A stretch of DNA of 64,000 nucleotides from Hydractinia symbiolongicarpus. Taxonomy: Eukaryota; Cnidaria; Hydrozoa; Anthoathecata; Hydractiniidae. Below, piece by piece: positions 18,701-63,962 of this stretch. A program made the translations under genes and the position numbers. Each line of letters starts with the position of its first letter. Position 1 is the first letter of the stretch. The stretch covers positions 26,722,001-26,786,000 of the forward strand of contig NC_079884.1 of assembly GCF_029227915.1 (NCBI RefSeq). The letters are read 5' to 3'. The notes below the pieces were generated by a model, which worked only from the letters and a program-made list of their open reading frames with translations, did not search any database and had not been told where the DNA came from.

Positions 18701-21700
18701 TTATTTAATTTTCTAAAGTGAGCTACTTAAAAAGCCATCCCTGTCATTTTTAACTAACTAACGAATTTTTCAAAAATTACCAGAAGGCTTTATGATTCTA
18801 ATTATTGTTTATATATATATATTATTTTTGATATTATTATTTTATTTTAGTTTTACAACCAATCGTGGCTTCAAAAAGATTGAAAATCAATACTAAGCCT
18901 GGATCAAACTTGGATATACCTAAAGTAAAACATTTTTCGTGCTGCTTTAATCTCTGCCTTAAATGTTTGCAGAAACTTTATCTTCCTTTTTTTCTTTTTC
19001 AGATTTTTTTGAGTTTGGTTCTGGAAGAACTTGGCATTGTTTTGCTTCAAGCACAATATCATGGACTAGTGCACCTACTAGAATCTTTTGAACGTATGAA
19101 TAGAAATGTTCCATTTAGAAAGTATCGACCACATGTCTCTCTTAAAGGGAATGCAAAGATTTGGTATGTCTAGTTTACTGTTTTTGCATTGGTCTTTGTT
19201 GTTTTATCCTTTTACTTTGACATTGTAACAAATATTTGTTGACTTCATAAAATTTTAAGCCATTATTTTGAAAGCCAGGTATAAAGAGATGTGAAGTTAT
19301 ATAAAAATTAATTAAACTATGTAATATGCTGTGTAGATACTGAAAGATCAACCTAAAAATTTTAACAGTTTATTGACCATCAGGATTTTTTTATCATGAG
19401 CTGGCAAATGATTTTAAAATTTATATATATTTTTAAGTCCATTTGTATTTCAATTTTAATCTTGAAGAAAAATAAGCATGTTAAGCAAGTGAATATCAAA
19501 TACATTATATTCAGAATGCAGACCCACATCAATGACAGTGTTTTAAACACTAAAGTGTCTATCTTGAAAAATATTCAAAAATGATAAAAACTACTCTCTC
19601 TTGTTTTTAACATTTTCTCCAGAAAAGTGAACATTTTTTACTGATCAGTTTTTATTTTACTCAGGTGGAAATATTGTATGGACAGTGTTCTTATAGAAGA
19701 TATACAGAGAAGATCAGAAATGTGGAAATGGGAGAACATACAACAACATAGGTTACTTTTCTTACCTTCAATTACCTTAATAATTTCAATGGTACATCAA
19801 TGATTATCGGTAGGCACAGATATGAGACAATGTGTGATGCTTAAAATTAAACATGTTTCGAAACAAAGAATAAAAAAGGTGTTTGTTTATAAAGTAGAAA
19901 ATCTTCACAAATAAGAAAATGTGCTATCTGCCTTTTAAGAACCCTAATATTGATATTTTGTGATGCATTTTCTTTTAGACGTTAACCCTATTATATGGGT
20001 GCTTTTGGCCCATGTTACTTTAAAAAGAGGAGGGCCATAAATCTCAAACTAGCTATGCTTATGTTGATGCAGTTGTATAACGCCTTAATACAAATTCATT
20101 TAAAGTAAAACAAATTTTTGATGACGTAACGGTCACAGTCACATTTCTAAAATAGACCATTTCTCCATTTTTAAATATACTTTAAGTTCTCACTACGCTA
20201 CCGTCTTAATTATTGATAGACTTGTACCAAAAAATCATTTGATGTTAAAATAAAATTATAAAGTTATTGAGATCAACAATGATATTAAATCTGCAAGAAA
20301 GTTAGCTATTTAAGCAACACAGATAAAAAATCTCTTTTTTTTAGAATTATTGACACTTTGAGTTTTAAGTTAAGAAAACAATATATTTACATTCTTGGGA
20401 TCGGATTAATATTTCCTTCCAATCTGGTCCATAATTTATAACTAGATCCCATATATTACCTTAGCAACCCCTTGGTAACCCGAAGTGAATAGTATACATG
20501 TAATAAACATTAATAACAAATACAACACTTTTTTAACACTTACATTAAAGTAAACAATTTTCAATGTTCATAAAAATTTTCTGAACAAATTTGTTTTCAT
20601 CACAAACCTCAATAAAAGTTTTGAAATCACAAAATTTCAGCACTCAATTATGTGCCCAACAAAACTTCAAATTCATACTTAAAATCACCTAAAGTAACCT
20701 ACTTTTGACAAATATACCATTAGAGAAAATATGTGACAGTCTAAAATTTGGTCCTTTACAAAATAAAAATACTGATAATTGGAAAAAATAATTAATGCTT
20801 ACCCCTAGAAAATGCACAAAGTGCACATATACTTTTTTGGTTTTGAAGAACTTTTAAATTAATCTCAATAATCTCTTAGGTACTGTATTTTTGCATCTGT
20901 GGCAAGACTTTTCTTCCGTTCACTAAATTAAAAATGGTTGTTTTCATAAATAGAACATAAAATTAGTCACATTTTATACATAGAAGGTAGGGCTAGGAAA
21001 ATAATATAGGCATAAATATTACTGGATTCTTCAATAAATGAATTAATTTTGCGTTTTATAGGAGAATTCTACTCAAGGGATAATTGTTATATAGGGCAGG
21101 GTACCTAGCATGAAAGGTTTTTTACACCAAAATGTTGTACAATTTTGTAACTTTTCAATGAAAGCAAAGAGATCCCTAGCATTACATGTACAAGTTTGCT
21201 AGCAAATCTACTCCAAATAAGCACGAAAACATTGCCTCGTTTTTTCTTTTTAGGGTCTAATTCCGAATTTGTATTGGAAAGTTGCTCTTGGTGCTTTCCT
21301 GTTGTAATTTTTTATCTTCACACTGTGATAAAATTCTAACAATTCATTTATACTTAAAAAAACAGATACTTTATGAGAGTGTAGTATGCCCAGAACATAA
21401 ATATTTTTGTTTCATATTCATAAATGCTTGTACTTTTTAGCCTAAAACTTAGAGGTGTGTCAAGCAAAAAAGTTTTTTTATATATATATTGAGATTTCAA
21501 CTTATAAACAGATTAATATTTGTTATTTTATATTTTCCTTTTTTATCTTTTTTCTGTCGAAAATTTATATTTTTTATTTTAACTAGATATTCTATGAATT
21601 ATAACTTTTCCAATGATATAAAAATCAAAAGCGCAACAAAACAAAAATAACGATTTAGGTGTTTCATGTATCTTTAATAATGTTGTTCCCTACTAATATT

Positions 21701-24700
21701 CTCACTGATGCTAGCAATGTTTTCTTAGTAAGAAATTTAATTAAAAATAAATTCTTTATGGCACTTTGTTCTGTAGAACATTGTGCAAAGGTTATCAGAA
21801 AAGATATAAAGAGAAGATTTCTACAAAGAGTCCATCTAAGACGCTACTTGCTGAGTTGGAGGTTAGTATGACTTGTTTACCACAATCATGGCTTATATTT
21901 GACATGAATGTCTCTTGTAATTTTGTTGCAATCATTGTTAATATGTAGAACATGGAAAATCAACTGAATGTTGTCAGCATCACAATATTTCGGTCATTGG
22001 CAGAAAATGAGGTTAGTTTAAGAGGCAAGACAGTCCTGTTCTTTTTACTTTGTTGTTTATGCTTTACATATAACATTTTTAGGTTATTAGAGAGAGAAAG
22101 TTGAAGCAGGAAGCAAAATCTGGTGGATTTTTTGGATTCTTCTCTTCCAAAAAGAAAGATGAAAAAGTGAAAACTACCAGTAAAATTGAAGGTATTAACA
22201 TTGCATCAGATACTATTAATAATCTTACAATGCTTACGTGTTTACAAACAAATCGGGTCCAGAAATGTTACTTATAAATAGGTTCTGTCAGTTTCAAAGA
22301 ATAGTATGTGTTTATATTTAATATACGGTATGTTAAGGTATGTTAAACAAAGTAGTAACTAATATGGAGGTTGTAAACACTAGTCACCAAAATTTGTTTT
22401 TGTCTTGTTTTTATTTGATTAACTTGTTTAGAAATGATGGGTGCTGATAAAGATACCGAGATGCAGAAGTTGTATAGTGCTATTGGATATAGTGAAAATG
22501 AAGTTATAACTCCTTTCCCTGCTGATGTATGCTTTTTGATCACAACCTCTTTTGTTTTTTTATTTGCAGGTGTTTTTATATTTAAATTTTTTCATGTTGG
22601 TAAAAAATTGTTTACACAAATTCCTATTATGTTGAATGGCAATGAAAATTCATGAAATTTCTGTTTAAAAAGACAAGAAACACCAGTTTTCATGTATTTT
22701 AGTAATTTTAAGTTGCCGAAGTTTGTCCTGTGAGGTCAGGAAAAAATGCTAAACGAAAAATTTCAAGGACCACATCAACATTTGTTTATGCATTTGATAA
22801 AATCTACAATTTTTATTAAAGTTCGTACCATAGTTGCTTTTATTTGAATGTTTTTTAATAGTATGTGGCTAACGTTTTTCAATTCAAATTGCAAAGAATA
22901 TCTATCACTGTCAGAAGCGAATCATCAACAAAGCCTACCATTGACGTTGTTCGTTTTACTCTTGATAGTATTACTGCAGATTTATTTCAAAGACCTTCAG
23001 CAAACGCTTTGAAGTAAGTTATATTGCAAGGTTGGTGTATGTTTAAGCGTGTTAACCTACATAAATTTTATAGTTTCTTTAATTTACAAGATTTCTATAA
23101 TTTTTCTTAACTGCTTTAAACATGGAAAGAATGCAGTTTGTAAGATGTTGACATTTTAAAATCTTCATGAAAGCTTATTTATTTTGCAGGGCATGTGTAA
23201 AGATAGGGAAAATGAAATTATATGGTACTCCAAATGATCAAGAAGTTCCATTAATGATTCGCAATGCAAATGAAGGTATGCCAAGCTTTTTGTTTAATCG
23301 AAATAATTGCAAAAAAATAAGTTTTCACATCTTTTGAATATTATTTTTAGGAACAGTTGACAATGCTCTTCCATTGGTCGATTTTGTCTTTGAAACAAAT
23401 CCATTGAACAAAGAAGATATTGATCAGTGCATAAATGCCGTTTGCCAGCCATTAGAAATTATATATGATGCTGTAAGTAATGTTATTTGCAGAGTTAAAG
23501 AAAAAGTTGGCATCCTGCTTCATTGATTAAAAGTTCAATAATAAAAAAAATCACACACATAGTTTTAGCATATTTATATTACATTTAATACCAATAATTA
23601 GCCTAATTTATCACAAAGTTATCTTTAATCATGTCTTAGCAAGGTAATCTGTTTTTCTTACCAAATGCTGCTAAGACACTCAGTTCTTCAGTTCATATGA
23701 AGAGAATTACATGAGTGACTAAAATTACTTGCTAAGTCAAATACATTGTACAACAAAAAAATGATAAATCCTTTTTCTTTTTTTTCCTTTTAAATTGTTA
23801 CCATTGACAAAACAATGCATTTTGTGCTGTTATTTTAGAACACAGTCAATGATGTCATTGCATTCTTTGAACCTCCTGAAGATGTTCTGTTGAAGGAGTA
23901 TGTTTACTGTTTTTTAACCTTCTTGCAAATTATACTAGCATTGGTAATTTTTGAACACTGAATGCAGTGATGACAATTTGATTTTTTAGTCTTCAAGAAA
24001 AAGCCTACTCCACGTTTGAAGACTTCAAAGTTTCAAGCACAGCTGGCTTGTTACATGCTATTGACAAACGAAATGTAAATATTCATGTTTGCTATCAGAA
24101 TAATTTACCTGGCGTAGCTATTCTAGAAACTTTGCTTAAATTGCTTTTTTTCTAGATTTTAGATGTGGATATCAAAATTAATTCATCGTACTTGATTATT
24201 CCAGATAAAGGTGTATTAGCACAGTAAGTATGAATAACTTTTTCTACTTTCACTAATTTTTTTGCAAATACGCAAGGGATGATATGATAACTAAGAGTAG
24301 TTTTTGTCTGTTTATACAAAGTTGTTTTATAGATGCACAGACAGAATTGTGGTTGATTTTGGAAGCTTTCATATCCAAAGCGATCCTAATCAAATTCGAG
24401 TTGTTAATCCCAAAGTGCGTTAACATTTTTTACTTTGAGGATTCCTAAAATTCTAATAGATTAATTATAAATGTGGGTTTATATTAAGGAAATTGATGAC
24501 ATAAATGAAGTTCAGGAAAAAGCATATGACCGCTTTCTTTTGAGATTGACAGATCTTCAAATCCTGCTTTGCAGGGAAGGTACAATTTATAAAATATAGT
24601 GTTACAGTTTATACGAAGAGTTGTGTCCTATTACCCTGGTGTCCACTTATTTAATTTAAACATTCACAGGTGAAGATTTACATAGTGCGAGATCCAAACC

Positions 24701-27700
24701 ACAGTCTAAATTTCAAGTTCTGTATCCTGTTGCGTTTACTGGAAATCTTGCTAAAGCCATACTTCCACAAGATCCACGGCTGAAGCAGTAGGTCCTTTTT
24801 CTACTTATGTTCTTCGTTTGCTGATAACATTTTGTACTACACTCTGATTAACCAATAAAATTATATTCACATAGAATTTGCGTCCAGGGCGAACTTTCAA
24901 GTTTAGAATTGACTGTATCTGATGATAAACTGAGCAGAGCTGTTTTGGTATGTACACTTTTGTAAGCATAAACATGTGGAGCATTAAGATGCAAATTTCA
25001 CATTTAGATTGTGTTTTACGTAATTGCTAACAAATTTTTGAACTAGCATACCATTAAGAATGGCGATTGGTGAATATTATGAATATAATTGTACTATAAA
25101 GGAAGGCTGGTTACCTTTAATATTGATTAACATGAGAGCACAGAACACAATATCGCTAACATGGTCTTTGTACTGACCTATTTATAATTAAGAAAATATG
25201 AACAATATTATTGAGTTGATAAGAGGTAAAAGTGGGAAAAATATCTGATATTGATGCAAAAAAGTTTGCAATGAAAAAACTGACATATACAGATTCACAC
25301 ACATCTTTTAAATAGTATTTAACGTTAAGGTTCATTTAAAAAAAAAATTGCAGTAACTGTCATTGCATTTTGATTGTTATGTTTAGAATCTCATTCTTAT
25401 GTTACTTTAATATATATTACATTTATACATGCAACAAAACAGCAATTAGCAATTTTAGAATTCCATACCCTTACTTTTCATCATACCATAAGGTTAATAT
25501 TAAATTTGATTATTAACATTAGAGAATGACCTGCACAGGTAACAAAATATTTTTACCGTGCTATCTTGTAAAAAAATTATCTATTAACAATCTAATTATT
25601 GTTGTAAATAATAACTACATGTGTAATACAGTCAGTTTTTTAGTTGTTCAAAATTTTACGATACCCTCCAAAATTTTAAAACTATGCTGTAATACACTAG
25701 CAAATGTTACATGGAATGAGTGGCAGGTATTATAAGTAACATCAAATTCATATAAAAAACGCCAAACTTTTAGTCACCGAATGTTAAACGTGAAATGAAC
25801 TCAACATTTCAGTTGTCAATATTTATTTGGCATATTGCAATGACTTTGAAATGAATGATTATATACTTCCTCAAATGTGTTATATATTGGACTAGTTGTT
25901 ATTCCATGAAAATTTTACACATCATTCTTAGCAAAAAGTATTAATTAACTCTATGGGGTCATAGGAAAATTCGTAAAATATTTAAATTTGCCATTTTTTA
26001 GTAAAAATAATTTTGACCTTTAGCACGAAATCCGTTTGCATTACATATAGACTATGAGTATATCCATAGTCATACCTGTATTTGTACGTTTGTTTGTCAA
26101 AACTACGTTCTACTGGGTAAAAACTATTTATTATTAAAAGAGAAATAGTATTTGTTGTGTTAACATGAAAAAGACATGTATCAATGCAATTTCATTAAAT
26201 ATTTGTTCAGTTATTTGATAGTTTACCACTTCCGAAGCCATCAAAAACTGTGATGCTTGGTGATGAACCAGATACAACTTTGACGCAGGTAGGAAGTAAT
26301 ATGACTTTTGGTATTAGAGATTTCATTATTCTTCTATGCAACGTCGTGACTTATTTATGTATTTTTCTTCTTTTTTTTTGTACAGCCTATTTCAAAGATT
26401 GGACAATCAGATGAGGAGTATGCTATTTCCATACCAGTTCCTAACATGACGAGTATTTCTGATGAATCTTTTCACACACCACCAGATGAAGGCATACTTT
26501 CTCTGGAACCCAGGTAAAAATTTAAATTGATAGGCTATCACAAAACTGAAGTTTTTATGAAGTGGAAAGCTTTGCCATATAACCATATTTTTTTCAGTGA
26601 TGGACCTGATTTTGCATCTGGTGTGGCAAATCAAGTAAAAATCGAGCTAAAATTTGAAATTAAGAAAGTAAAATTGGCTATAGCATTGACTGATAAGGAT
26701 CAAAACAATGAAAAAGACTGTGTTGAAATCATTATTGAAAATATTGGCACTGAAGTTAGGATGCGAAGGTGGGATAAGTTTGTTGATGCTAATATTGGTC
26801 GGTTTGTGTTACGAGAGATGACATATGGATTGGAAGGGGAACCTTTAGATATTTTAAGCACGCCCAAAGATGGAAACATGTTACAGGTTTCTTATCGAAA
26901 GTGTGAATTTGATGAGTCACTAAACTTGGGTCTAGGCTATTTTTATTCAGCTGAAGCGCAAATACGAGCACTTCACTTTAAAGATGAATTCCAATCTACA
27001 GAACAGTTAATCGAAATACAAGTTGCAATGTTGTATGTTATTCTCCACCAAGAAGCGCTTTTAAGTATGATGGCATTAATATATCAGGTGCTTGAACCAT
27101 TAAATAAAAGAAATGAGACACCAGTCAAAGCCATCAAAAGACGTGTATCAGTGGCTGGCAGCCAGTTGAGTCTTGCCATGGCAGAGAAGGAAGAAAAAAA
27201 GAAGATGGTTGATTTAAAAGTGCATAAAGCTGCTCAGGAATTAAAAGAAAAAATTGGGGTTCACGAGGAGAGAAAATTAAAGGTTGATGCTCAGATGGAT
27301 GGATTGCGTGTTTTTATTTGCTCATCACATGGCGATCTTGCTGAGGCCCATGTAAAAGGAGTCGCAGCCAATGTTATTATGCAGGATGAGAAAATGGAGG
27401 TAAAAGCACACATGACGGACCTTCAAGTTACAGATAATGCTGAAAATTCTAAATTTACAAAGATTATTTCCATGCAAAGTGAACAGGTGTTTGATCTTCA
27501 GATTGCAATGTTTGAAAATGGCAGCAAGGGTTCGAATGCGTTGAATATATCATCAGTTGATACTATTGTGAAGCTGGACATAGGACAAATGAGAGCTGTT
27601 TTTCTAAATCGATTTGTTTCTGATATCCTTGCTTTTCTTGATCACTTTGAGGATGCACAAAAAGCAATTCTCGAAGCTGGAAAAGCTGCTAGGGATAAAG

Positions 27701-30700
27701 CAACAGCTGCGGTAACAGAATATAGTAAACACAGTTCTCGTCATCAGCTCAATGTTACTGTTCGTGCACCAATGGTAGTGATACCAGTGCATTCTAATTC
27801 TGATTTAGCGTTATTGATAGATTTGGGTGAACTACATGTATTCAACAATTTCAAAATCTTTAATAAGAATGATGGTCCTAAAAACATCGTTATTACCGAC
27901 AATATTACTGTCAAACTTTCCGACCTTAAACTTATGAAGGCATTGATTAAAGAAGGAAAAGATATAAAGGCACGGAAGGAGCTAATCAAACCAATGACAT
28001 TAAAGTTGAGTGTGATTCGCAATTTGACTCCGGATAATCATGCGGTGCCTGATGTAAGTGTGGAGGGGATTTTAAAGACAATTACGTTAGCTCTAAGTGA
28101 GGAAGATTTGAGTGTTGCTTTAAAAGTTTTGCAAGGAAACATCGCAGAAGGTAAAAGACGAAGCACACCAAAAACACGTAAACTGAAAAATGATCAAGAT
28201 AACCATACTCAAGATCTGCTTGCTGTTCCCACGGTAAACAGTGACCGGCTAGCAAGCATCCATGAAGAAGAAGAAACTGGAAACCTTGTGTATGAAAATG
28301 TGCGTTTCAAATTTGAATTGGAGAAAATACTGTTACAGGTGTATTTAAGACCATCAGATTTGACATTCGAAGAGGAGTTCTTAGAAAGAGATCTTGACTT
28401 CCTTTTGAGTCAATTCATCGTTGGACACCTTGATGTTGCTGGCACTATTATGTCTGATAGTGATATAGATGTCAATATTTCACTGGATACTCTCATGTTA
28501 GATGACATGCGACCAGGAAGTAAGGACACTTTGACACGGATGATTGATAATTGTCCAGAATCTTTGATTGACATTTTAGAGAAACAACAAGATATGTCTT
28601 CTGCAAAAATGATTGAGGTACAATTTAAGCAGTCATCAAAGTTGGACAAGAATATTGAAGTTAAACTGTGCAACCTTCTTTGTATACTCAATGTCGAGTT
28701 TCTCATGGTATTGATGCGGACATTATTAGCTGCAGTGCCAAAAGAAGACAGGGAAGGAGTTGATATTTTATCTGATTCTGGATCTCCCACACACAGTATA
28801 GCATCCAGTGATGAGGATACCGATGTTTCAACCTCTTATATTGACCAAAACGACGATGGAGTTGCATTGCTACCAGAAACACGGTTGCAACTGAACGTAA
28901 CAAATCCTCAAATTGTACTTCTGGCTGACGCAAAGGATGTGAAAACCAACGCTTTGTTTTTGACTACAGAAGTTAATTTCCAATACCTTGAGGTAAGTAA
29001 TGTGCAAAAAATGATGGGTACCGTGATGAACACTGCCATGTTGTCAACAGCTTTTAAGAAGCAACACCGCACAGATATATCAACAGTGTTGTCACTGGCG
29101 ATGGTGAATTTACATAGCTCGGCACCGATAGGAGGAAAACCACATATGCATGTTAACATGTCACTTGTAAAGCTGAATATCTCCCCAAAGACAATCAGGA
29201 CCGTTTCAGCTTGTGTCAGTCAAACTGCGGCCCCGCCTGATGAAGAAAGTTTAAGAGAAGCTCAAAAAGCAATGGGCCAGCTATGGGAACTGACTAATAT
29301 TGTGGATAAAAAGTTGTGGTATTTGGATACACCAGCACAACATGTGTTGAGTGCAGGAAGTTTTGTACTTGCTCGAACAGAAGTTGGTGATTATCAAAAT
29401 GGTTTTCTAGCCAAGAAAGATACCCATTTTACAGTGTATTTTTATCCAAATGGTTCAATAAGTCATTCTGTGTCCGATATCACGTCAGTTGTTGTTGATG
29501 TTGCACCACACAAAAAGGAGTTAACTGTGGGAGCTAATGTTGTGGCTCTGCGTTCACCAGAACATTACAGAGTTGGACGTATAATGGAGGTATTCTCTTC
29601 AATGATCTTAATGCTGACAAACATTTTATGAAGTCTTGCTTATCATTTCATTTTGTGTATGAACAATTTAATTTTTTTTAGATTTGGAATAATGCTGGTT
29701 CTTCTGAACAAGCTGAAGTTGCAAAGGAAGCTGGTGCATCAGATGAGGATTGGGAACTAACAAAACACGAAGATTTATTTGATAAGTATCTCATTAAGTT
29801 TTACCATGACAATTTTGAGCTTTATTTAGTTAGCGAAGAGCTGCGTCTGCTTCCAAGGCCGAAAAAGGGTATCATACCAGGGCTAGGAGCATGTGTATAT
29901 GCACGATACCGAGATGGTTTTTACTATAAAGGAATTGTTGAAGCAATTCTTGGATTTAAAACTCGAATTCATTTGGTGGAAATAGATGATGAAGTGAACC
30001 ATGACATGGATGACCCGTCTGCTGTCATACTAAATATGACTCCAAGGGAAAGTCAAATAAAGAAATATTTTAAAGTCATTGCATGCAAAATGGAAGGTAC
30101 TAAAGGTTACCACCCTGGCAAAGTTGCTGCAATCCAGGGAAACCCGGGCTATAGAAGTTATACCATTAAGTTTGAAGATGGTTCCACAAACCAAGTACCT
30201 GTAACAAAGTTGCTACTGATGCCTAAAGCTCCTTATGATGGTAAACTTTTATTGAAAAATAATTTTTTTTTCATAAATGATTTTAACATAAGTGAAACGT
30301 GCAAACATCACATTTTCCTATTTTTAGCTTTACCAGAGATTGGTACATATGTTTATTCGCGTGTGGCGCGAGATTCTCCGATGTATGAGAAGGGTATAGT
30401 ACATAATAAAGAAGACCGTATCTATGTTAACCATTTAAATGGCAACAAGTTCTCCCAAGATCCAAAAAATATTGGCTTTGTGATTCGTAACATTGTTCCT
30501 TTAACATCCTCGCTGAGAGTTGGTCAAGAAGTAATTGCTCAAGTAGATTCAAATGATCGAAAAATGTTTATGGGCGTTATCAGAGAGGTGATACAAGGTC
30601 CAAAATTAAAGAAATACTTGGTGGAATTTACTGACGGTTCTAAAAAGAAATTAACACCTGGTCGAATTCGCATCATTCCGACGTATGGCACCACTGAAGA

Positions 30701-33700
30701 GGAGACAATCGAATCGCAGACCAATCTTATGCGAAGAGAACAACTTGTTGTTGAAGTGGAGGGCGTGTCCCTGCGTATCGAAGGTTATCTTGGTGGCCAA
30801 TTGGAACCAATGCTTCGTTTTGATTCGAAATTAACCGCAGAGGTGTATGATTGGTCCAAAAAATTGAGCGCGACTGCTTTCACTTCTTTGCAAGCAAGTT
30901 ATTATAACGATTTTGTTGCAGAATGGGAACCGCTCATTGAACCAATCATTGAAAATAACCGCGACCGACCATGGCTGTTGAATATTAATGTAAGTTTCTT
31001 ATACATGTTTGTTTTATAAGCAAGTGAAAATTCGAAATCAGGATGGCATGAAAAAACACTTGAGGTTAAGAGTATGCTAACGTTATGCTAGTGTTAGTGA
31101 AGTCTTATTGTGTATGAGAATTAAGAAAAGGCGGTGTCTAATTAACATAAAAAACCCACCGAAGAAGGATTCACCAGGGCAAGCCATATGTATAAAATTT
31201 CGCAGGTTAAAGCTTTTGATAATTTTTGATGATTTGTCCTCTCAATACCATTCATAGAACTATTATGTTACTTACCCTTTTTAACGTAAAATTCATTGTA
31301 ACATTTTTTTAGTATGTCACTGAGGATGATAACGTTCAAGCAGGAGATAGCTCAGCTAATGACGTCACTTTACTGCAAAAACCAATGACGTCATTGAAGT
31401 TACAATCAAATGACAATCTGGAAGTCACAATTACAAAGTCAGGGCTTTCTTTACTTCAAGATCTTGGGAAGGTAAATCGATGAGTTTTTAGGGTTGCCAT
31501 TTCTTTTTTTAATGATCTTTTGTTTTTGAAAATTCTTTAGAAGTTTTTGAAAAAGCTTTAGAATTTGTGAAATATCCATTCAATATGTAAAATGCTTTTT
31601 AAAATATTTTTAGTTTTTTTTAGAACCAGTTTTGAGCACATTTGTGTGTTATTTGTACAGGATGGCCAGTGACGTAGAAAAGTCATGGGATATTGACTGG
31701 CCGCTATGTCGTGCTGTCCCTTTCTAAACAAAAGTTGTGAACAAAGTTCATATTGAAATTCATCTTTCATATTTTCATGTAGGCGTTTGGTGAAGCAGTG
31801 GAACAAACTGCAGATGTTGGTCAGGTTCTAGTTATTGAGAAGGATCCATTTATTCTGCATAACAAGGTATCGAAATTTAAATTTCCTTAGCTTAAAAATT
31901 TAATTTTTTAGCCTCGAAGTTTCGTAACGTTTCTTTAATTTTTCGGCGCTGGTCTTTTCTTAATACAACAAATATCACATTAATAAAGTATTTTTAATGG
32001 TTAGTGATTTGTTATGCGCAAAACGATAACTAAAAATCACTATGTTGTTAATTTTTGATAGGTTGGGAAAAGAGTAACAGTCGTGATGAATGATTTAATT
32101 CAGGTGTTGTTGACGTTTTTATTTTACTGATTTAGTAACATATGTCAAACATTATGCAGGGTGAGGCTTTACCTTCGAAAGATATTGGTTTCTTCAAGGG
32201 AGAGCTAAGGTCAAAATTAACATGAAAGATTTAGTGATCATGTTTTTCTTCTTTTTGTTATATTTAACTGGATTGACAGCAAATTCAGAACACCAGGCTA
32301 AGAACAAAAAAAATAGTTTAAAACAACCAGACTCCTGAATTTACTTGGTTACGTAACATAAGGATCCTTTACTACGACTTTTGGGCCAGAAAAGAATTGT
32401 TCCAGTAGGACCAAAAACGATTCGTTTCTGATAATCACTGGCCTGAAGGAAAATTTCGGCTAAACTGTCTCATTTGAGTTAAATTAAAAGGTGCGGTGCT
32501 GTCATTAAAACAATTTATCAAAAAATGATTATCAGAAAGTTCAAATTAACACACAATTGATAATTAACTTGACTTTAAGTAAATTCTACTTTTAATTGAT
32601 ATTTTTTGCGACTGTTTTATATCAAGCCCAGGAAATGCCTTCTTTGTATAAGCTTTTGTACTCCGAACACATGTAAATATCTTTGCATAGACCATATCTT
32701 TGACACAATGTCCGTAACAAAAAGTAGTAGATTTCTTAAGATATAGAGTTAATACGTTATATTCATAGGGAAAAGACGGTGGAAAGGTTTTAACGTTGGA
32801 ACCGTCTTCCCAAGTTGGTCTTAAATATACAGAACGCGACATGAGCATCAGAAGATCTGGTCAAAGTAAATTACCCACTTTGTCAATTACGGTAAGTAGC
32901 TACTTTTTTAGGACTAGGCTGACCAAAGTGTCAAAGTTGCAACTTTAATCAGTTTAGCAATGAAGTAGATGTCCCTGTATAAAATGTGACAACATTTGAT
33001 AAAGCAAAAATTCCCTTGTTTACATAACAAACCAACCTATATAGTATCTATAGTACAATACTTAGGACACACTTATTTTTTGATGAATATGGATATAAAA
33101 AAGCTGTACATATTAAGATTTGGTATCCATATAAACATTCTTTGAAATGCTAGACACTACTAGTAATTCTATTTTAACATCTGATAATAAATTTCTTATT
33201 CCTTCTTACTTGACCAAAAAATTTGCTAGATTTAGTTGTAGACAATATTTGTTTTGTAAGTTCTGTTTTGCAGGTTGATGGCTTCATGGAAATAAAAAAT
33301 GTCGCTGTTAAACGTCAGAAGACAATCATATATGACTTGATATCGACAAATGTAAATCGTGTTTTTTAAACCTCTCTTTTCTTGCGTGTATTCAATTTAT
33401 TAAATTGTATATTTATGATGTCTTATTTACAGATCTTGGGAAGTAGCGCATCATATTCTCTGATCATCCAAGTGACTGCAACAGATGGGCAGCGTGTTAT
33501 AACACTTCGCTCGCCGCTACAGGTTAACTATATTCCTTGTTTCACAAAAGAGTTGCCTGTTACTACTATTATTGACTGCTGTTGAATTCTTATTGATTAT
33601 GTTTTGTTTAGATTCGAAATCACTTCCCTATGCCGCTAGATGTTTCATATTTGAACAAGGAGAATAGATCAGTGAAGCTAACTTCAATTGATGCTGGTAG

Positions 33701-36700
33701 AATCTATTCAATTCCTCTTGTTTTGGCATACCACAGTAGTTTCTACATCAAGCCAGCAGGATTTGGGTATATAACTTTACCATGATCGCCATGGTTTTAT
33801 GATCACGTTTCTTTCATTTTACAGCGTTTGGCTTTTATGAATGTAATATACTCTAGATATAATGTGTCAACTGAGGCAATCAGCTGGAGTGATTTATTGG
33901 AAGAGAGACAAAAACAATATATCTGCTCGAACCCAGTGGAAGATTCTGATGACTTCTACGTGCAGGTGTGACACATGTGTCCTTGATTTAAAACTTTTCT
34001 AAAATCTCTTATGGTCATTCGAATAATTTTATCATTTTTTCCCTCTTGAAAATAACCATTCTTTACCATCGGGTGGATTTTGCTGAATGTGTGCCCCTGT
34101 TGTTGTTTTTTAATGCTTCGTAATATTACGTTAGTCAAATAGACTCTTCCTAGTCAAATAGACTCTTCCTGAATTCCACATTTTTTCATATCATTGAATT
34201 CGCATTAATGTTTTTTAATTATTTCGTTTGCACAGGTAATTGTTGAAAATGACGTTTACTCGTCCATTCATGGAATGTTGGAATCTGTTCCACGCTACAC
34301 ACTTCATTGTTATCCGCCCATCGTGCTGCACAATTACCTACCGTACCCTATCTTCTATCGTGCGAAGGTATCGACATATTTATTTTTTGAAAGGCGACAT
34401 CCCAATTATAAAAACAACAATACAAAAGATTGTAGCATATTAAAATTCCGATAAAAGATTGTTTCTAGTTTATTAGATTCGAATTTTTTGACGTTTTTTT
34501 ACCATCATTTGCTTTTGTTAATTTCAGGGTATGTCTGCCAATGAAAAGCTTGAAGGTGGAAGTCATTGGCCTTTGTTTACTATAAATGTGGAAGAGAAAC
34601 CTGTTGTTGATATAGAGGTGAAAATTTTAGACTTAAAACTTAACCATGTTTTTTTAAAAGTATACTTTACTGGTGTGTTCGATAAATAAGAAAAATGAAC
34701 AACGCGTTCTCTTTATTTTTGAACTACAATAATTTCCCTTTCAAATTTGAAGCTTGATTTTTAATTTTTTTTTTCATTGTGGGCGATTGGATACCAGAAC
34801 ATAGTATTTCCATTTAATACCATTGAATGAAAGAGTCTAAAGAAATTAAGTACAGAAATTTTCAATTGATAAATATTCTTTAAATTTTTTTTACCTCTCC
34901 CTTTGTCTTGAACATATCTAAGTTGAAATTCTCTTCCTTGTTTTTTATAAGTTATCATGTGATTTTCTGCTTTTTACAGGTTGAATATCTTGGCACCCGC
35001 TGGTGCGGTAGCATAATTGTGTCTGAATGTAAAAAGAACAACTCAAAAACTGCCCGCTTCTCACTATTTGCTGATGGTGACAAAAGAATTGTAAGTTCCA
35101 TGCTCCAACCGATTTGCATTTACTGCACTGTAATCTCCATAGTAGCAATACCCGTATTGTGTCTATATCCGTACGATTTCATAGTCATGCTACGTAAACA
35201 AGAAAGAGAAAATGCGATATATTTTCATCGACTTTGTTGCCGTAGATTCTAACGTATATTCATTTTTCAGGAGCTGGGTGTTTATTACTTACAAGAAGGT
35301 TCGTTGCATGCTACATTGTACTGCCCTTACTGGATGTTAAATAAAACTGGTAAATCTCTTATTTACGAAGTAAGTATATATGAACAGGGAAATAAAAGAG
35401 ACATTAGGTTGTGTGTGCTTCTAATTTTACTGTATCCATCGTCGATGTCTATTTTTACTTTCAGGCAATCGGAGAACCATCCACTTATGAGCATGCAGAC
35501 ACAAATGAAGGAGCGGTCATGTTTTTCGTACGAGGAAAGAAGAAAAAAGTTTGTAGCTTTTTTTTTATACATGCTTTAAACGCTCAACGATTTAGGTAAA
35601 CCTAAAAATGTTCTGTACTAAAATTTCTTGTAGGCGCGCGTTTGTGTGAGTGGTTGTGATTGGTCAAACCCATTTTCGTTGGATACAATTGGTAGCGGCG
35701 GTTCTTTAAAATCAGAAGGGCTCCGCGGAAGGCTGTATGAGGTAATGTTTTATTTTTGAAGGACTGTACCACCCCTTCCCTGAATTTTATGCTTTAGAGT
35801 TGTTGTTTTTATTTTTAGATCGGTGTTGGTATCAGTTTATCGTACTTCGGTTTGACAAAAATTGTAACCTTTACACCGTTGCGAATTCTATCCAATCACA
35901 CTAAGGTAAGTTATTTGTTGGTCATGCGGTTTCAAGGTTACACGTTGGTCACGTGGGTTTAATACTTAAAGCTTCGAATACATGTACACCAGAACATTAA
36001 GTATTCGTCTGAAAATCCATAAAAGTAACTGGTATTTAATAATTTGTAGTATTTTTTTTCACATATTTTTAGTTTACAATAAGCATGGCAGAAGGAGAAT
36101 CAGAAACTGCAGAATGGCATACAGTGAAGCCTGACGAGGTAGGTTGTTGTATATTTTTGTTTTTATAAGACAAAAATAAGTTAGCAGTCATTATGTTCGT
36201 CCACATTATAGAGTGTTCCGTATTGGCCGACTCGCTCGCCTCCGACGAACCTATACCTAAACATCAATGGGATAAATTCAGTTGAATTTAATCTTGAGGC
36301 TGGCAAGACATTGCTACTAAAGTTTCAAAATGAGGTAAGATCGCAAGTAATTCAAACTAGAGTTTATTTGTTAAATAATTATATGATCTTTTGAAAATGA
36401 TGATTTCTTTTTTTGTAGATTGGAGGTGTTTGTTTGAATTATCAAGAAAAGGACTGGACATCGTTGCTTTCGTTCACTGAATACTTCTCTGGTGCTGCGC
36501 CTGTGCGTATTGAGAACATGTGCAAGAAAGTCAGCATGATCAGTTATAAACAGGTGTAAGTAGAATTTACAGAATACGCTATATTTTACACTATATGTTA
36601 CACTATATGTACACTATATGTGCCACTATATGTTACACTATATGTGCCACTATATGTTACATATATGTACACTATATGTGCACTATATGTTACACTATAT

Positions 36701-39700
36701 GTGCCACTATATGTTACACTATATGTGCCACTATATGTTACACTCTATGTGCCACTATATGTTACACTATATGTGCCACTATATGTGCCACTATATGCGT
36801 ACACCATGTTACACTATATGTTACACTATATGTCCACTATATGTTACACTATATGTGCCACTATATGTTACACTATATGTACCACTATATGTTACACTAT
36901 ATGTACACTATATGTGCACTATATGTGCCACTGTATGTGCCACTATATGTTACACTATATGTGCCACTATATGTGCCACTATATGCGTACACCATGTTAC
37001 ACTATATGTTACACTATATGTCCACTATATGTTACACTATATGTGCCACTATATGTTACACTATATGTGCCACTATATGTGCCACTATATGCGTACACCA
37101 TGTTACACTATATGTTACACTATATGTCCACTATATGTTACACTATATGTGCCACTATATGTTACACTATATGTGCCACTATATGTTACACTATATGTAC
37201 ACTATATGTGCACTATATGTGCCACTGTATGTTACACTATATGTGCCACTATATGTGCCACTATATGCGTACACCATATGTTACACTATATGTTACACTA
37301 TATGTTACACTATATGTCCTATATGTTCTTATAAACGAATGAAACAAATTAAAATTTTTAGACGTGTTACCTTCGCACGTACCCTTCTGGCTCGTGTTAA
37401 CTGTGTTTAGTTCATCCCTTTTTGAAGTTGGTACAAAAACTACACGCATGTGTAAAATACGATTAGGCTAATGAAGGCATGGCCCAACTACTTTAATAAT
37501 TTCTTGAAAGTTTAATTGTGATTTTTCCTATACTACCTACAATCTTATCTATAACCTGTTACATAGGCTATATCTATTTCAAATTTAAGCATGTTAAGTC
37601 CAAACATTAAAATGTGCTAATTTTTGATGACGTCAGCATGACCAGTTTCCACTAATTAAACGCTGTCTATCTGGCTTACGTGTGTGCAAAAGTAGCGACT
37701 TTGCAGCCGGCCGGATTACCATGTAAAGCTTTGTCCATATTTAAATAATGACGAAAATATTACCTTTGTCTCAATATTTTTGTCCAAGATTTAATAGCTG
37801 TAAACAATTATTTCATATTATAAATTATTTTCCTTTTTTTTTTCTTTTCATTTACACAGAGATCATTTCAAAGGTTATGTATTATTGTATGGACAGTCCA
37901 CGTTGTATACATGGGACAATCCAATGAAGCCTCACGAACTAATTTGCTCTCTGATTGAAGTAAATGAATCGCAGACCAAGATAAAGCTGGACACGGTATG
38001 TTGGCTTTGCTCGAGTTTAATCTACCGAGAGATGTGAGATATGAACACGATCATCCCTTACTTTGTCTTCTGCCATTTTTAAAATGACAAATATCTTGAA
38101 GGGAGAATAAGTTTTCTTAAAAATCGTCTGTTCTTTGATTGACAACATAATGGGGATGTTTATTTTCTCTGTGTAGAATGACTTTGGTCGTATGAAAACT
38201 GGAGAGAATGCGATCTACTGGGTTTCATTTTTGGACGGACTGCAACGAGTGCTATTGTTCACAGACAATTTTAAAGCAGCTTATTGTGCAAGCCAGGTAA
38301 CATTTTCAAAGTGTGATCTAAAAAGCAAAAATTGTATGGGTAAAAATGTTCCTTCAGAAGTTATTGTAAAATTTTTGATTTATTTAGGAACAAACATTAC
38401 GCCCTACGCAGGAGATAGATCTGAATATTGAAGGTCTTGGTCTGTCTTTGGTCAATGGTGAGAAAAGGATGGAGATTGCGTACCTGGCTATAGAAAAGTT
38501 AGTGGTTTAATATTTTTTCTATCTGAGTTTCTGTTTTTGTTCTCATGGTTGTGATGTTTTTTCGTAGAAGCCCGATTGTGTGGGAACAACACAAAAAAAA
38601 TCGCTGGAAAACACTGCCAGGGCGCATGTGCGAAGCACTGGAAGAGGGTTACACGCGAATGCAAGCGAGAAAATCGAATGTTGCTTCGAAAGAAAAAATC
38701 CTCGAGATGGAGGTAACAAACTTTACACGACTCTGAATACTCTTCCAGTTTGGTAGTAAGGATTGTATCGACGGACTTAATAATTCTTTGACTTTAGGTT
38801 GATTTCGACAAGATGTTTATCACGAAGCCTGAGAAGATTCAAATTCGAAGAACATTCCACAGCGGAATTGGATTCAAATATATTATCTCTCCAAATCGAA
38901 TGCAGATCAGTGCTACTATAAGTTCTCTACAGGTGATAGACTTCTACCTTAAAAACGTCTTATCTTCTAAACAAAAATTGATTCCCGCGAAATTTGGATT
39001 TTTTTTACTTTTTAAAAAAACGATTTACGCTAATTTTTTTCTTCTGATTTACATAGAGCTACATGAAATATATATATGAAGTTTTAACCTCGGCAAGTCT
39101 TTATGTTATATCTCCAACTTAAACGCCCTTAAATAACGGTATAAATTGAGAAACAAAATGTCATCAAATTCTTTTATCGCGAAATTTGCGAAATTTAATT
39201 CTCACGAAACATTTGACAGCAACGAAATTTAGTTCTTTTAGTTCTAAAATTAATTTTCTTAAAATATTTTAAGTATAAATAAAAAATTGTTTTATTGCAA
39301 TGTATTTTTCTCTCCAGTTTGACAGCCACATTCCAGGTTCAACTTTCTCAACAGTCATCCATCAGGTGGAACCACCAAAGTCAATAACCAATGACAACGG
39401 TGGGTGTTTTTTGCGTGTCTCATTCGTTAGTTTTCTCGTAAAAATAATCGTTTATAAATCGTATATGTTTTGCAGCTCCGAAACCGTTTTTCGAACTGAG
39501 TTTGACCACAAATGTTGGAGACACAAACACTGTCAACGAGATCAGGTAAGTCGAACATTTAAAACTTTATCCTTTATTAGATCAAAGGGATGAAATATTA
39601 TCGAAGTTACGAAAATTCTGTCTCACGAAACATTTTCATAGTTAAATCTTCACTGTAACAATCTATCGTGTGTTTGTAGTACAAATTGGTTGGATTTTTC

Positions 39701-53400: not shown

Positions 53401-56400
53401 AACTTTGGCGACGAATTTTATATGAAATATTCTACACTTACAGCATGAGAAAATTTCGTCAGTTTACTTTATCATATGCACAATACCTCAAATTGGGGGA
53501 AATTTGATTTGCCAAATTTTCGTCCAAACTTGCCTAACTTCAATATAACGTTAATATACCTTTGTGTAACATTTTGTTAGGAAAAAACAATAAGTTTTAA
53601 TGCACCAGACCTAGGCCAACATCTGTGTACATTTCGTCTACATCGTCTCATGAAATAGTGGTTCGCTTAAATTTTTTAAGGCTCGGATAGAACCCCAGGT
53701 GTTGCAGAATCCCAGGGATTGCAGAAGCCGTGGGGAAAATAAAACAAAATCCTAACCTTTCTTTCTTACACAAGAGGTTTTCTGAGTTGACGCAATTTCA
53801 TCTTTCCTTTCCTGTTCGCTTTCCGTTTCAGTGAGTCGTCCATCCAACAGGTCATCTGTATCATTTGCAAAATTTAAAATATAGTCAATAAGTCAAAAAT
53901 GTAAAAAGAAATAATTTGTGCACTTACTAATTCAAAATATAATTTTAACATTTTTTTCTGAACGTTTACCTTTTTCAACTTTTCAAAGAAAACATGTTTT
54001 TCCAGGTCTGAACAACCATCGAAAAACTGAACTCGTAATCTCAAAATTCAACTAACCTGAAATAGCCATTGAGTTTGTAATAGATGTCGCTGATCTAGTT
54101 AAATCGTTTTTTGAAGTTAAAGAATCGCAGCCTTTACTTTGTTTACCATCTAAAGGTAAAATCGAAAACATTAACAATAGAATAGTATCATTATTTTACT
54201 TCACCAAAAATATTATAAGAAGTATACACCAACCTTCTGATTTTGAATCATTTTCGCTGTGATTCAAAATGACTTCATCAACACTTTCCATTTTATTCAC
54301 TTCAGGACGTTTCAAAGCAGTTCTTGCTTCAGGTGTATGTATTGACTTCTTTTTGGTATGTTTTCTTACAGTTGAAGTGCCATGTAGTGGATTCTTCGAC
54401 TCGGGGACAGAATCTCCTAGTGTAAAGAAAACACTTCTTTTAACTTAAAATGACGTTACGAGGGTTTAAAAGTCAAGAATTAATGTGATATTAAAATAAA
54501 AATGATTTAACAATTGAACTAAACATTTTGTTTGGTGTTTCTGGAATTGAATATGATTTTAAAGGTAATGCCATGCAAAAAGAACAAATTATTTCTTCTA
54601 CAAATTAAAATATTAAGCAAAAGTAAAAATTGAGGGCAGTTTTGGAGATTTAAGGAGTTTTAAAGAGGCGTGAAAAATCTAATATGGACATGTTAAGTAG
54701 AAGCTGGCACATGATTGAGAAAATGTTGCAAACTGTACCTTCGAGAAAAAAATTTAGGTAGAAGAACTACTTTGCGCATTATTATTAAATGGTAGTGAGC
54801 GGGGATTGACACGTAGTCCCCCAGAACTGGGAACTACAAACGAACGCACTACAACTACGTTCAGGAGAACTACTGTGCACATCACTAACACATTGCTATA
54901 ATTTTATTTACACCAAAAAACAGAAACAAACAAAACTTTTTTAATAAAAATAATGATAGAAAACATATAGTTTTCGAAATTATTCTTTTTTATCATGTAA
55001 TTAATTAGAGGAAGAAGAGAGCTTCTGTTGCCCTAAATACAAATTTTAAAATGTTAATGACAAATGTTTGAGAAAAAGGTATTTCATAGTGATAATAAAC
55101 TAATATGTTATGAAGTTATCTATGATTTTCTGAAGTGGTATGTTCATTACTTTCCTGTAACTTAAAATGACACGCGTTGGGGCATTAGCAGATCAGAAGC
55201 AAGTGTTTACATGAAATCACAACAAAAAGAAATAACAAGTGTTTACATGAAATCACAACAAAAAGAAATAGCAAGCAAGTGTTTGCATGAAATCACAGCA
55301 AAAAGAAATATCAAGCAGTTGTTTGCATGCATTCACAGCAGAAAGAAATATCAAGCAAGTGTTTGCATGTATTCACAGCAAAAAGAAATATCAAGCAAGT
55401 GTTTGCATGTATTCACAGCAGAAAGAAATATCAAGCAATTGTTTGCATGTATTCACAGCAAAAAGAAATATCAAGCAAGTGTTTGCATGCATTCACAGCA
55501 AAAAGAAATATCAAGCAATTGTTTGCATGTATTCACAGCAAAAAGAAATATCAAGCAAGTGTTTGCATGTATTCACAGCAAAAAGAAATATCAAGCAAGT
55601 GTTTGCATGCATTCAAAGCAAAAAGAAATATCAAGCAAGTGTTTGCATGCATTCACAGCAAAAAGAAATATCAAGCAAGTGTTTGCATGCATTCACAGCA
55701 AAAAGAAATATCAAGCAAGTGTTTGCATGCATTCACAGCAAAAAGAAATATCAAGCAATTGTTTGAATGTATTCACAGCAAAAAGAAATATCAAGCAATT
55801 GTTTGCATGTATTCACAGCAAAAAGAAATATCAAGCAAGTGTTTGCATGCATTCACAGCAAAAAGAAATATCAAGCAATTGTTTGCATGCATTCACAGCA
55901 AAAAGAAATATCAAGCAAGTGTTTGCATGTATTCACAGCAGAAAGAAATATCAAGCAAGTGTTTGCATGCATTCACAGCAAAAAAAAATATCAAGCAATT
56001 GTTTGCATGCATTCACAGCAAAAAGAAATATCAAGCAATTGTTTGCATGTATTCACAGCAAAAAGAAATATCAAGCAAGTGTTTGCATGCATTCACAGCA
56101 AAAAGAAATATCAAGCAATTGTTTGCATGTATTCACAGCAAAAAGAAATATCAAGCAAGTGTTTGCATGCATTCACAGCAAAAAGAAATATCAAGCAGTT
56201 GTTTGCATGCATTCACAGCAGAAAGAAATATCAAGCAAGTGTTTGCATGCATTCACAGCAAAAAGAAATATTAAGCAATTGTTTGCATGTATTCACAGCA
56301 AAAAGAAATATCAAGCAATTGTTTGCATGCATTCACAGCAGAAAGAAATATCAAGCAAGTGTTTGCATGCATTCACAGCAAAAAGAAATATTAAGCAATT

Positions 56401-59400
56401 GTTTGCATGCATTCACAGCAGAAAGAAATATCAAGCAAGTGTTTGCATGTATTCACAGCAAAAAGAAATATCAAGCAAGTGTTTGCATGACATCAAAGCA
56501 AAAAGAAATATTAGCAATTGTCTCATGACATCACAACAAAAAAAAATTACCTGAAATATTGATAGACTTTGTAATAGTTGTCACTGATCTAGTCAAATCG
56601 TTTTTTGAGGTTAAAGAAACGCAGCATTCACTTCGTTTACGATCTAAAGGTAAAATAAAAAAACATTAACATTAGAATAGTGTCATTATTTATTTCAACA
56701 GAAATATTATAAGAAGTATACACCAACCTTCTGATTTTGAATCACATTCGCTGTGATTTAAAATGACTTCATTAACACTTTCCATTTTATTTACTTCAGG
56801 ATTCATCATAGCTTTTCTTACTTCAGGTGTATGTATGATTGATTTCTGTTTTGTATGTTTTGTTACAGGAGTAGCTTCAGGGTTGGGTAGAAGATTACTC
56901 AGTTTTTGTGATGCATCTCCTAGTATATAGAAAATGTTTTGTCAATAAATCAAAGTGCAGCAAGTGTTTATTAGAAGACACAAAGTAGATATCTATTTTT
57001 AATCTGTTTTCCAAATATAAAAATCGGTAACAAACAAACCCAATATTTTGTTCGGTGTTTCGGGAATCAAACATGCATGAGATAGTATTTTTTCATAATC
57101 ATTTGATGTTGAAAGATCAACTTTCTTGTTCTGTTTGTCCTCTGTTACTAAATTCAAGAAAATAGTCCCTAACTTATTAAGAAATCGTCTTACATGCCAC
57201 TTTATTTTGATGCACAAACAGTCAAAATACGACTATTAGGAGAAACATTTTATGGATAATAATCACCAATTTTAAGTTACTTATTTTTTTAATAATAGCA
57301 AATATCTCACACCCTAAAAGGTTTAAAAATTAGGAATTCACAAGATATGTCTAGCAGATAAAACTAAGTATTAAAGCGAAATAAAGTACCTGAATCTCTG
57401 GTGTTTATTGATTGTGTGACCTCAACCAGTAAATCTAAATTGTTTTCACCAGAACAATGTGGTGCTTCCATGTTGTTGTTATTTCGATCAAGATGTTGCA
57501 CCTCATCTAATAAGGTAATTGTGAGTAGAAAGAAGCAATATGGACAAAATGAACAAAATGAACAAAAAGTGATATGTTAAAGTTAAATTTTGTACCTAAA
57601 GTTTTCTTTGTGGGACAGCTTGGTAATTGATAGTACTGGTTTTGTTGTTGACTCTCTTGTTTTCCTTGTATAACTTTATCATTCCGTGAAAAAAAAAAAG
57701 TGTGATAATTTATAACAACTAATGACGTTTTAAATATCTTAAAAGAATAAATTAAAGTTCCAGGAAGATTATTCCTTTTCTTCTTACTTTTTGGTAGGTA
57801 TTCAGTCGAGATGCTTGTATTCTTTTCATGATTTGTAAAGTCTTGACTAACATCAGAATTATTAATGCTAACATTAGCTGGAAATAAAATTATAATCGTG
57901 CTAATTTGTTAACTTTGTTGACAATCCCAAAAATTAATACACATGTAAGACTTTCAAACACAAAGAACATGAAATCCATCCATAAAAACATATTTACCAT
58001 TAAAGTAACTATTATCTTGTCTTGGAAAGAGATCGGAAGAATTCCTCTGAAACATAGACTCATCTTGATTTCTTTGAAACACAAAATCTGTGTAATCACA
58101 TCCAAGTGGAAGATCATCGACTTCTAAAATATAAAAAATATTACAAAATTCAAACTGTTTGAGTTAACCTCAAAGTAAGTCATGCAACTTATTGTCACCT
58201 GGTGGATACATGAAGCTGCCATTGGATTCTTCTGAAGGTTCAAAAAGTTGATTATCGTTTTCTGTATGCATACTAACTTCTTCAGGAAAATGACTTAATA
58301 CTTGTTCGATGTTGGCATCAGCAACTGGCATATTGCTTTCAGTAAGACAACTGTTTAAATCCAGTTCTGTATTCATCTCACGCAAAGAAAGCATACTTTC
58401 GCTACTTTCTCTTATGCTCTTACTTTTCATTTCTCTCTCTTTCATGCCTAATGAGAAAAATTAAAATAAAGCTAAACGACATAATATTTATAGGATATTA
58501 TTAGTAGGAAATTTGACATGATTTAATTTAAAAGATACAATTTATGACTATGTACCTCTTTGGCAAGCAGTAAGCAATCTCCCACCTAAAATTTAATACA
58601 GCACAGAAAAATCATTAAAAAAAGTGCAAGAAAGATTGGGATAAATCATTTCAGCTGGTATTATTGAACAATTGTGCGAAAAAAACTTTTGTGTGCAAGG
58701 TCTAAATATTATATTATGTTGTCTAAAACTGTTTTCATATGAAGCCTAAACATTTCCACATTCTAAAAAAATGTTCTACAATAACTAAAAACGATGAATT
58801 TTGTAGATCTGATTTGGACTTAGTTATAGAAAATTGTAACTTACATGAAAATTAAATCGCCTGTCACGAAGAGGAAACAAACCAGTTTCTGAAGACGATT
58901 TTAAAAATCTATTCTAGACGTGTTCATAAACATTGTCAAAAAAAGTTTTTATCTCGAGATTCATCTTAATTTAAGCTTAGGGCCAGGGTGCAAGATTGTG
59001 TGCCTGATAAAACTTTCATTTGATTAAATTTTTTTTATTCTTTTGTGACAGATCTAGTTTTTTTTGAAAAAAGCGCGTCAAAATAAAAAGACTGAGTTCT
59101 AATTTGAATATGACGTTTTATAGTTCAAAACATTGCGCTAGCTAGACAAAGTCCTATGTTGGTGCTTATAATGCAACAGAATTTCGAATAAGAAACAAAG
59201 AAATGCATCATAGTTTCTTGTCCAGTGACAAAGAAAAGACTGTTCCAGACATTTCGGCTCTAAAGTCTTTTAGTTTTGAGCCTGAAATGTCGTCGGAAGA
59301 GCAAAATAAATTTTTAAGTTCAAACCATGAAGACGAAGTTATACAAAAGAAGGCAATCGAATAGGACACAATAATTGGTGTAAATGAGGTGGTCACTGTA

Positions 59401-63940: not shown

Positions 63941-63962
63941 TAATTATTATGCTCAACTTAAC
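63941..63962 (-). promoter_or_regulatory. Short 5' leader with a splice-acceptor-like boundary
   Basis: Reading the minus strand, a pyrimidine-rich stretch ends TTTAG (63967-63963) and is followed by 22 bases before the ATG at 63940. This fits either a 5' UTR intron or a trans-splice acceptor. Confidence 0.35.

Follow-up and report, generated by a model that had tools for sequence, protein, structure and literature searches.

The action of VPS13 bridges is directed by accessory domains. Levine's 2022 survey (PMC7613979), in its section on them, lists UBA, lectin, WWE, beta-sandwich, PH, C2, beta-tripod and beta-helix domains, a list without a Tudor fold. UBA and lectin domains are found in VPS13D, WWE in VPS13A and VPS13C, a beta-sandwich in VPS13B, and a beta-helix and others in plants; accessory domains that sit in VPS13 loops are proposed there to be sites for partners. 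The VAB domain lies between segments 12 and 13 of the VPS13C bridge (PMC13430412). The words "Tudor" and "cnidaria" do not occur in the main text of the survey. The literature search never paired VPS13 with DUF4537; for VPS13 with "Tudor domain", neither term stood in the titles or abstracts of the matches, and for bridge-like lipid transfer with Tudor, the Tudor match examined was the name of an author. That VPS13 loops can house accessory domains is established, and a Tudor/DUF4537 array in such a place is not described in the passages covered by the literature search.

A VPS13 gene with an in-frame insert

The window analysed here is a stretch of 64,000 nucleotides from Hydractinia symbiolongicarpus (contig NC_079884.1, positions 26,722,001 to 26,786,000), and the gene described below lies on its plus strand. 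A draft exon chain extends over 13109–43284; it is incomplete, ending short of the PH domain and yielding a stop at one junction. On this chain the N-terminal domain PF12624 (VPS13_N) is matched in two pieces, at 116.8 and 100.9 bits (cut-off 80), PF25036 (VPS13_VAB) reaches 120.8 bits (cut-off 22.6) and PF25037 (VPS13_C) 24.7 bits (cut-off 21), and on a 1404-residue piece PF25033 (VPS13_M) reaches 196.7 bits (cut-off 50). With its N-terminal, middle, VAB and C-terminal domains all above cut-off, the gene is a member of the VPS13 family. The middle piece matches human VPS13C with E 4.2e-107; downstream of the insert, E is 1.4e-197 to VPS13C and 7.2e-190 to VPS13A. The best relatives with a solved structure are VPS13C and VPS13A, and the matches contained no VPS13B or VPS13D chain. 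Outside the insert the gene looks ordinary for VPS13.

The large exon 26598–29589 encodes the VPS13 middle region, where the VPS13_M match falls, down to the motif LWYLDT (29314–29331), followed by module 1 and the first half of module 2 of the insert. The whole insert, delimited by frame reading and by alignment to human VPS13, occupies 29332–30734 and comprises 408 codons interrupted by two introns; it is read in a single frame across the large exon, exon 2 (29682–30240, 559 bases) and exon 3 (30328–30991), which keeps the frame of the preceding exons. The bridge resumes at REQLVV (30735–30991), aligned to residues 2271–2349 of VPS13C and 155–255 of the VPS13A chain. The alignment to human VPS13C ends at residue 2255 (query 912) and restarts at 2271 (query 1318), and the blocks of the VPS13A chain end at 153 (query 911) and restart at 155 (query 1306), which places the two blocks almost side by side in the human sequences. 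The insert is coded in frame, occupies a single well-defined position in a VPS13A/C-like protein, and is built of A–B pairs of modules.

Most of the window (about 8742–59883), VPS13 included, has a second copy about 25 Mb away on the same contig (G000:C10:1226122-1286121), which is 99.97% identical over window positions 20001–30000, about 95–99% identical elsewhere, and differs by three bases in the three exons around the insert; it is either a recent duplication or a haplotype duplicate of the assembly. A 12-base tandem repeat of about 63 copies (36575–37317) lies within a draft VPS13 intron, and the open frames there are mechanical. Another tandem repeat, of 40 bases in about 34 copies with 93% matches (55197–56547), leaves one frame open for 462 residues, and an 808-residue open frame on the minus strand (61517–63943) displays many C2H2-like zinc-finger motifs by eye.

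Predicted splicing of the insert

Intron 1 (29590–29681, 92 bases, phase 0, GT–AG) contains an in-frame stop, and relatives share its boundary. Intron 2 (30241–30327, 87 bases, GT–AG) is open in frame, so that a 445-residue open reading frame reads through it and its retention would add 29 residues; it is called an intron because of its splice sites and because the sequence of the relatives diverges from that of the window there. The open frame of intron 2 is what speaks for the view that the modules are dispensable, being either removed by splicing as a rule or tolerated as an insertion that has no function. Against this view, skipping of exon 2 would shift the frame, owing to its 559 bases, and both ends of the insert fall inside exons that also encode the bridge, so that an in-frame isoform free of modules would need other splice sites. 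We hold this view to be most improbable. A cassette exon was rejected by the same length of exon 2 and the same position of the insert ends.

Three pairs of modules with a predicted Tudor fold

By profile comparison the insert consists of six modules that alternate as A-B-A-B-A-B, that is, three tandem pairs. Five modules are 55–59 residues long, and module 2 has 88, including an acidic loop of about 34. Pair 1 is formed by module 1 (type A, 29344–29508) and module 2 (type B, 29512–29867), the latter split by intron 1 and carrying the acidic loop, which is variable; pair 2 by module 3 (type A, 29871–30044) and module 4 (type B, 30054–30227); and pair 3 by module 5 (type A, 30330–30503) and module 6 (type B, 30507–30683). 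Modules 1, 3 and 5 group together with E values from 1.2e-6 to 3.1e-5 (module 1 matches modules 3 and 5 at 1.2e-6 and 2.3e-5), and modules 4 and 6 match each other at 1.6e-7. With its loop left out, module 2 matches module 6 (E 1.2e-4) and also module 1 (E 6.8e-4); with the loop it has no match. Comparison of whole pairs, each set against the maximum of 50 column shuffles, gave E 2.3e-8 for pairs 1 and 3 (score 49.4 versus 15.7), E 2.4e-9 for pairs 2 and 3 (54.8 versus 19.2) and, through the A module only, E 2.6e-5 for pairs 1 and 2 (33.2 versus 16.9).

In the 1404-residue piece two Pfam families pass their cut-offs: DUF4537, set at 27 bits, with 52.8, and Tudor_5, set at 31 bits, with 33.5. 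Taken alone, pair 2 (modules 3 and 4 together) scores 40.1 bits against DUF4537, and pair 3 scores 20.7 bits, below the cut-off; for pair 1, Pfam returns neither Tudor nor DUF4537 up to E 10. Among the relatives described below, P0014 (33.3 bits) exceeds the DUF4537 cut-off and P0012 (26.6 bits) falls just below it. Module 6 is the best modelled, as a predicted five-strand barrel that matches Tudor domains, its nearest structural matches being methyl-reading Tudors. Module 4 appears Tudor-like in the model of exon 2, where the pLDDT of the block is 58–85 except for the last residues, and module 5 was modelled without a confident fold. The Tudor fold is therefore a prediction, modelled directly for module 6 and weakly for module 4, and extended to the others by repeat homology.

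The initial annotation had described two VPS13 blocks split by about 400 residues, an insert of about six Tudor/DUF4537-like modules, and a place for these outside the usual VPS13 layout. The analysis bears this out: 408 residues stand where human VPS13C has 15 (2256–2270) and VPS13A has 1, six modules are found, both Pfam families exceed their cut-offs, and by alignment the modules are absent from human VPS13A and VPS13C.

The insert in related proteins

A query with the insert region retrieved 11 proteins, all VPS13_M, which cover module 1, enter module 2 and end at the same donor. A query with the remaining insert retrieved seven proteins, which correspond to exon 2 (P0012, P0014) or exon 3 (P0013, P0015-P0018) with identical boundaries. 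The VPS13 exon alignment, scored against only the 7986 candidates that share most words, gave 12 proteins. Eleven of these reach the site and all 11 bear the insert start, a count from which P0019 (535 aa), which stops before the site, is excluded, and which is to be read with the composition of alignment A1 (10 sequences, without P0005 and P0009): this contains the first part of the insert, so that scoring favours insert-bearing matches. The 11 are the same proteins as those found with the insert-region query.

Together with the window, these 11 form eight groups at 80% identity, and the most distant pairs are 47% identical. Identity to the window is 64–76% in module 1 versus 51–57% in the preceding VPS13 part; it is 53–81% over modules 3–6, 56–81% in modules 1, 3, 4 and 5, and 35–52% in the first half of module 2. 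No single relative protein spans the whole insert, and the relatives look like unspliced frames, so that the search would overlook lineages whose VPS13 exons are short. The insert is common to the relatives, which conserve its parts and have their exon boundaries at the same places. Conservation of the modules among proteins as little as 47% identical also argues against optional or functionless sequence. An accident of assembly was ruled out, as the relatives carry the insert too.

Aromatic cages and a possible reading of methyl marks

Tudor domains of SETDB1, PHF1 and TDRD proteins read methylated lysine or arginine. By extension, the array could read such a mark on a cytoplasmic protein and couple lipid transfer to it, and two observations point in this direction: the nearest structural matches of module 6, and module 3, which is aromatic at cage sites 1 and 2 in 3/3 sequences. 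Three cage sites were examined over 12, 3 or 6 sequences per module, being assigned provisionally from short MTF2 and SETDB1 alignments and in part from the usual cage positions of Tudor domains. In no module are all three of them occupied by F, W or Y. Site 1 has one of these residues only in module 3; it fails in modules 1, 4, 5 and 6 (0/12, 0/3, 0/6 and 0/6) and in module 2, where a single H occurs among 8 letters. Site 2 is aromatic in modules 1, 2, 3, 5 and 6 (12/12, 12/12, 3/3, 6/6 and 5/6) and is H in 3/3 sequences of module 4. At site 3, F occurs in modules 1, 2, 4 and 6, and module 3 (I) and module 5 (L) fail. These incomplete cages lower the standing of methyl-mark reading by the array, which now appears less likely, and we consider it decidedly doubtful as an account of the insert. 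The binding of methylated residues, which had been put forward for such modules at the outset, is accordingly the part of the initial annotation that finds no support.

A candidate docking arm on the bridge

The VAB match starts 124 residues past the insert in the incomplete draft. Given this distance and the position of VAB between segments 12 and 13 of VPS13C, the insert would lie in the loop that joins segments 11 and 12 of the bridge, by the VPS13C count. From that loop the array would project alongside the groove or across it, in the neighbourhood of VAB. The reading that we favour, with somewhat better than even confidence, is that six predicted Tudor barrels, arranged in three pairs at one point of the bridge, serve as an additional arm on which a partner protein docks near the acceptor-membrane end. 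Since each cage lacks part of its aromatic residues, what the barrels hold would be a peptide or protein surface that carries no modification. Partner binding would then recruit the bridge or set its orientation, a role played by VAB and PH domains in other VPS13 proteins. Docking near the acceptor end is suggested by analogy with VPS13 accessory domains.

It could also be argued that the array braces or gates the groove as a rigid element, which sets the shape or the opening of the bridge without any outside partner. The same predicted loop position would suit such a role; against it, calmodulin, which spans the groove at the opposite end, is a partner that binds there and not a built-in brace (PMC13430412). 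We regard a brace or gate of this kind as unlikely. In a bolder reading, which we put forward tentatively, VPS13 was remodelled in one animal lineage by the addition of a three-unit tandem-Tudor arm in the groove-crossing loop just ahead of VAB, and the bridge so acquired a second, Tudor-based site of recruitment or gating that works without methyl marks. If it were true, Tudor domains would act in bulk lipid transfer. More generally, the presence of so large and conserved a Tudor array in a single loop suggests that some animals gained a site for docking or gating near the acceptor end, and DUF4537, rarely mentioned in the literature searched, gains a setting where a binding role is testable.

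Comparison with DUF4537, Tudor arrays and other VPS13 inserts

DUF4537 (PF15057) has the tandem A–B unit in common with the insert, which differs in having three units in one protein, two of them below cut-off. Other DUF4537 matches are reported in the genome of the window (480.9 Mb, 76 contigs), namely L003, L004 and L005 (G000:C8), and unlike the insert they sit in genes other than VPS13: two nearby sites may be in one C11orf16-like gene, and the third lies beside a von Willebrand A-like open frame. The Tudor arrays of SETDB1, BAHCC1 and PHF1 resemble the insert in the five-strand barrel, as predicted for module 6, and in the tandem layout; these are chromatin proteins, whereas the insert stands in a lipid bridge and its aromatic cages are incomplete. 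In human VPS13C and VPS13A the same bridge flanks the site on both sides, and the difference lies in the number of residues between the flanks. The accessory inserts of other VPS13 proteins in the survey (PMC7613979) are also folded domains in a bridge loop and proposed partner sites; no Tudor fold is named there, and each consists of one domain, where the insert described here has three pairs.
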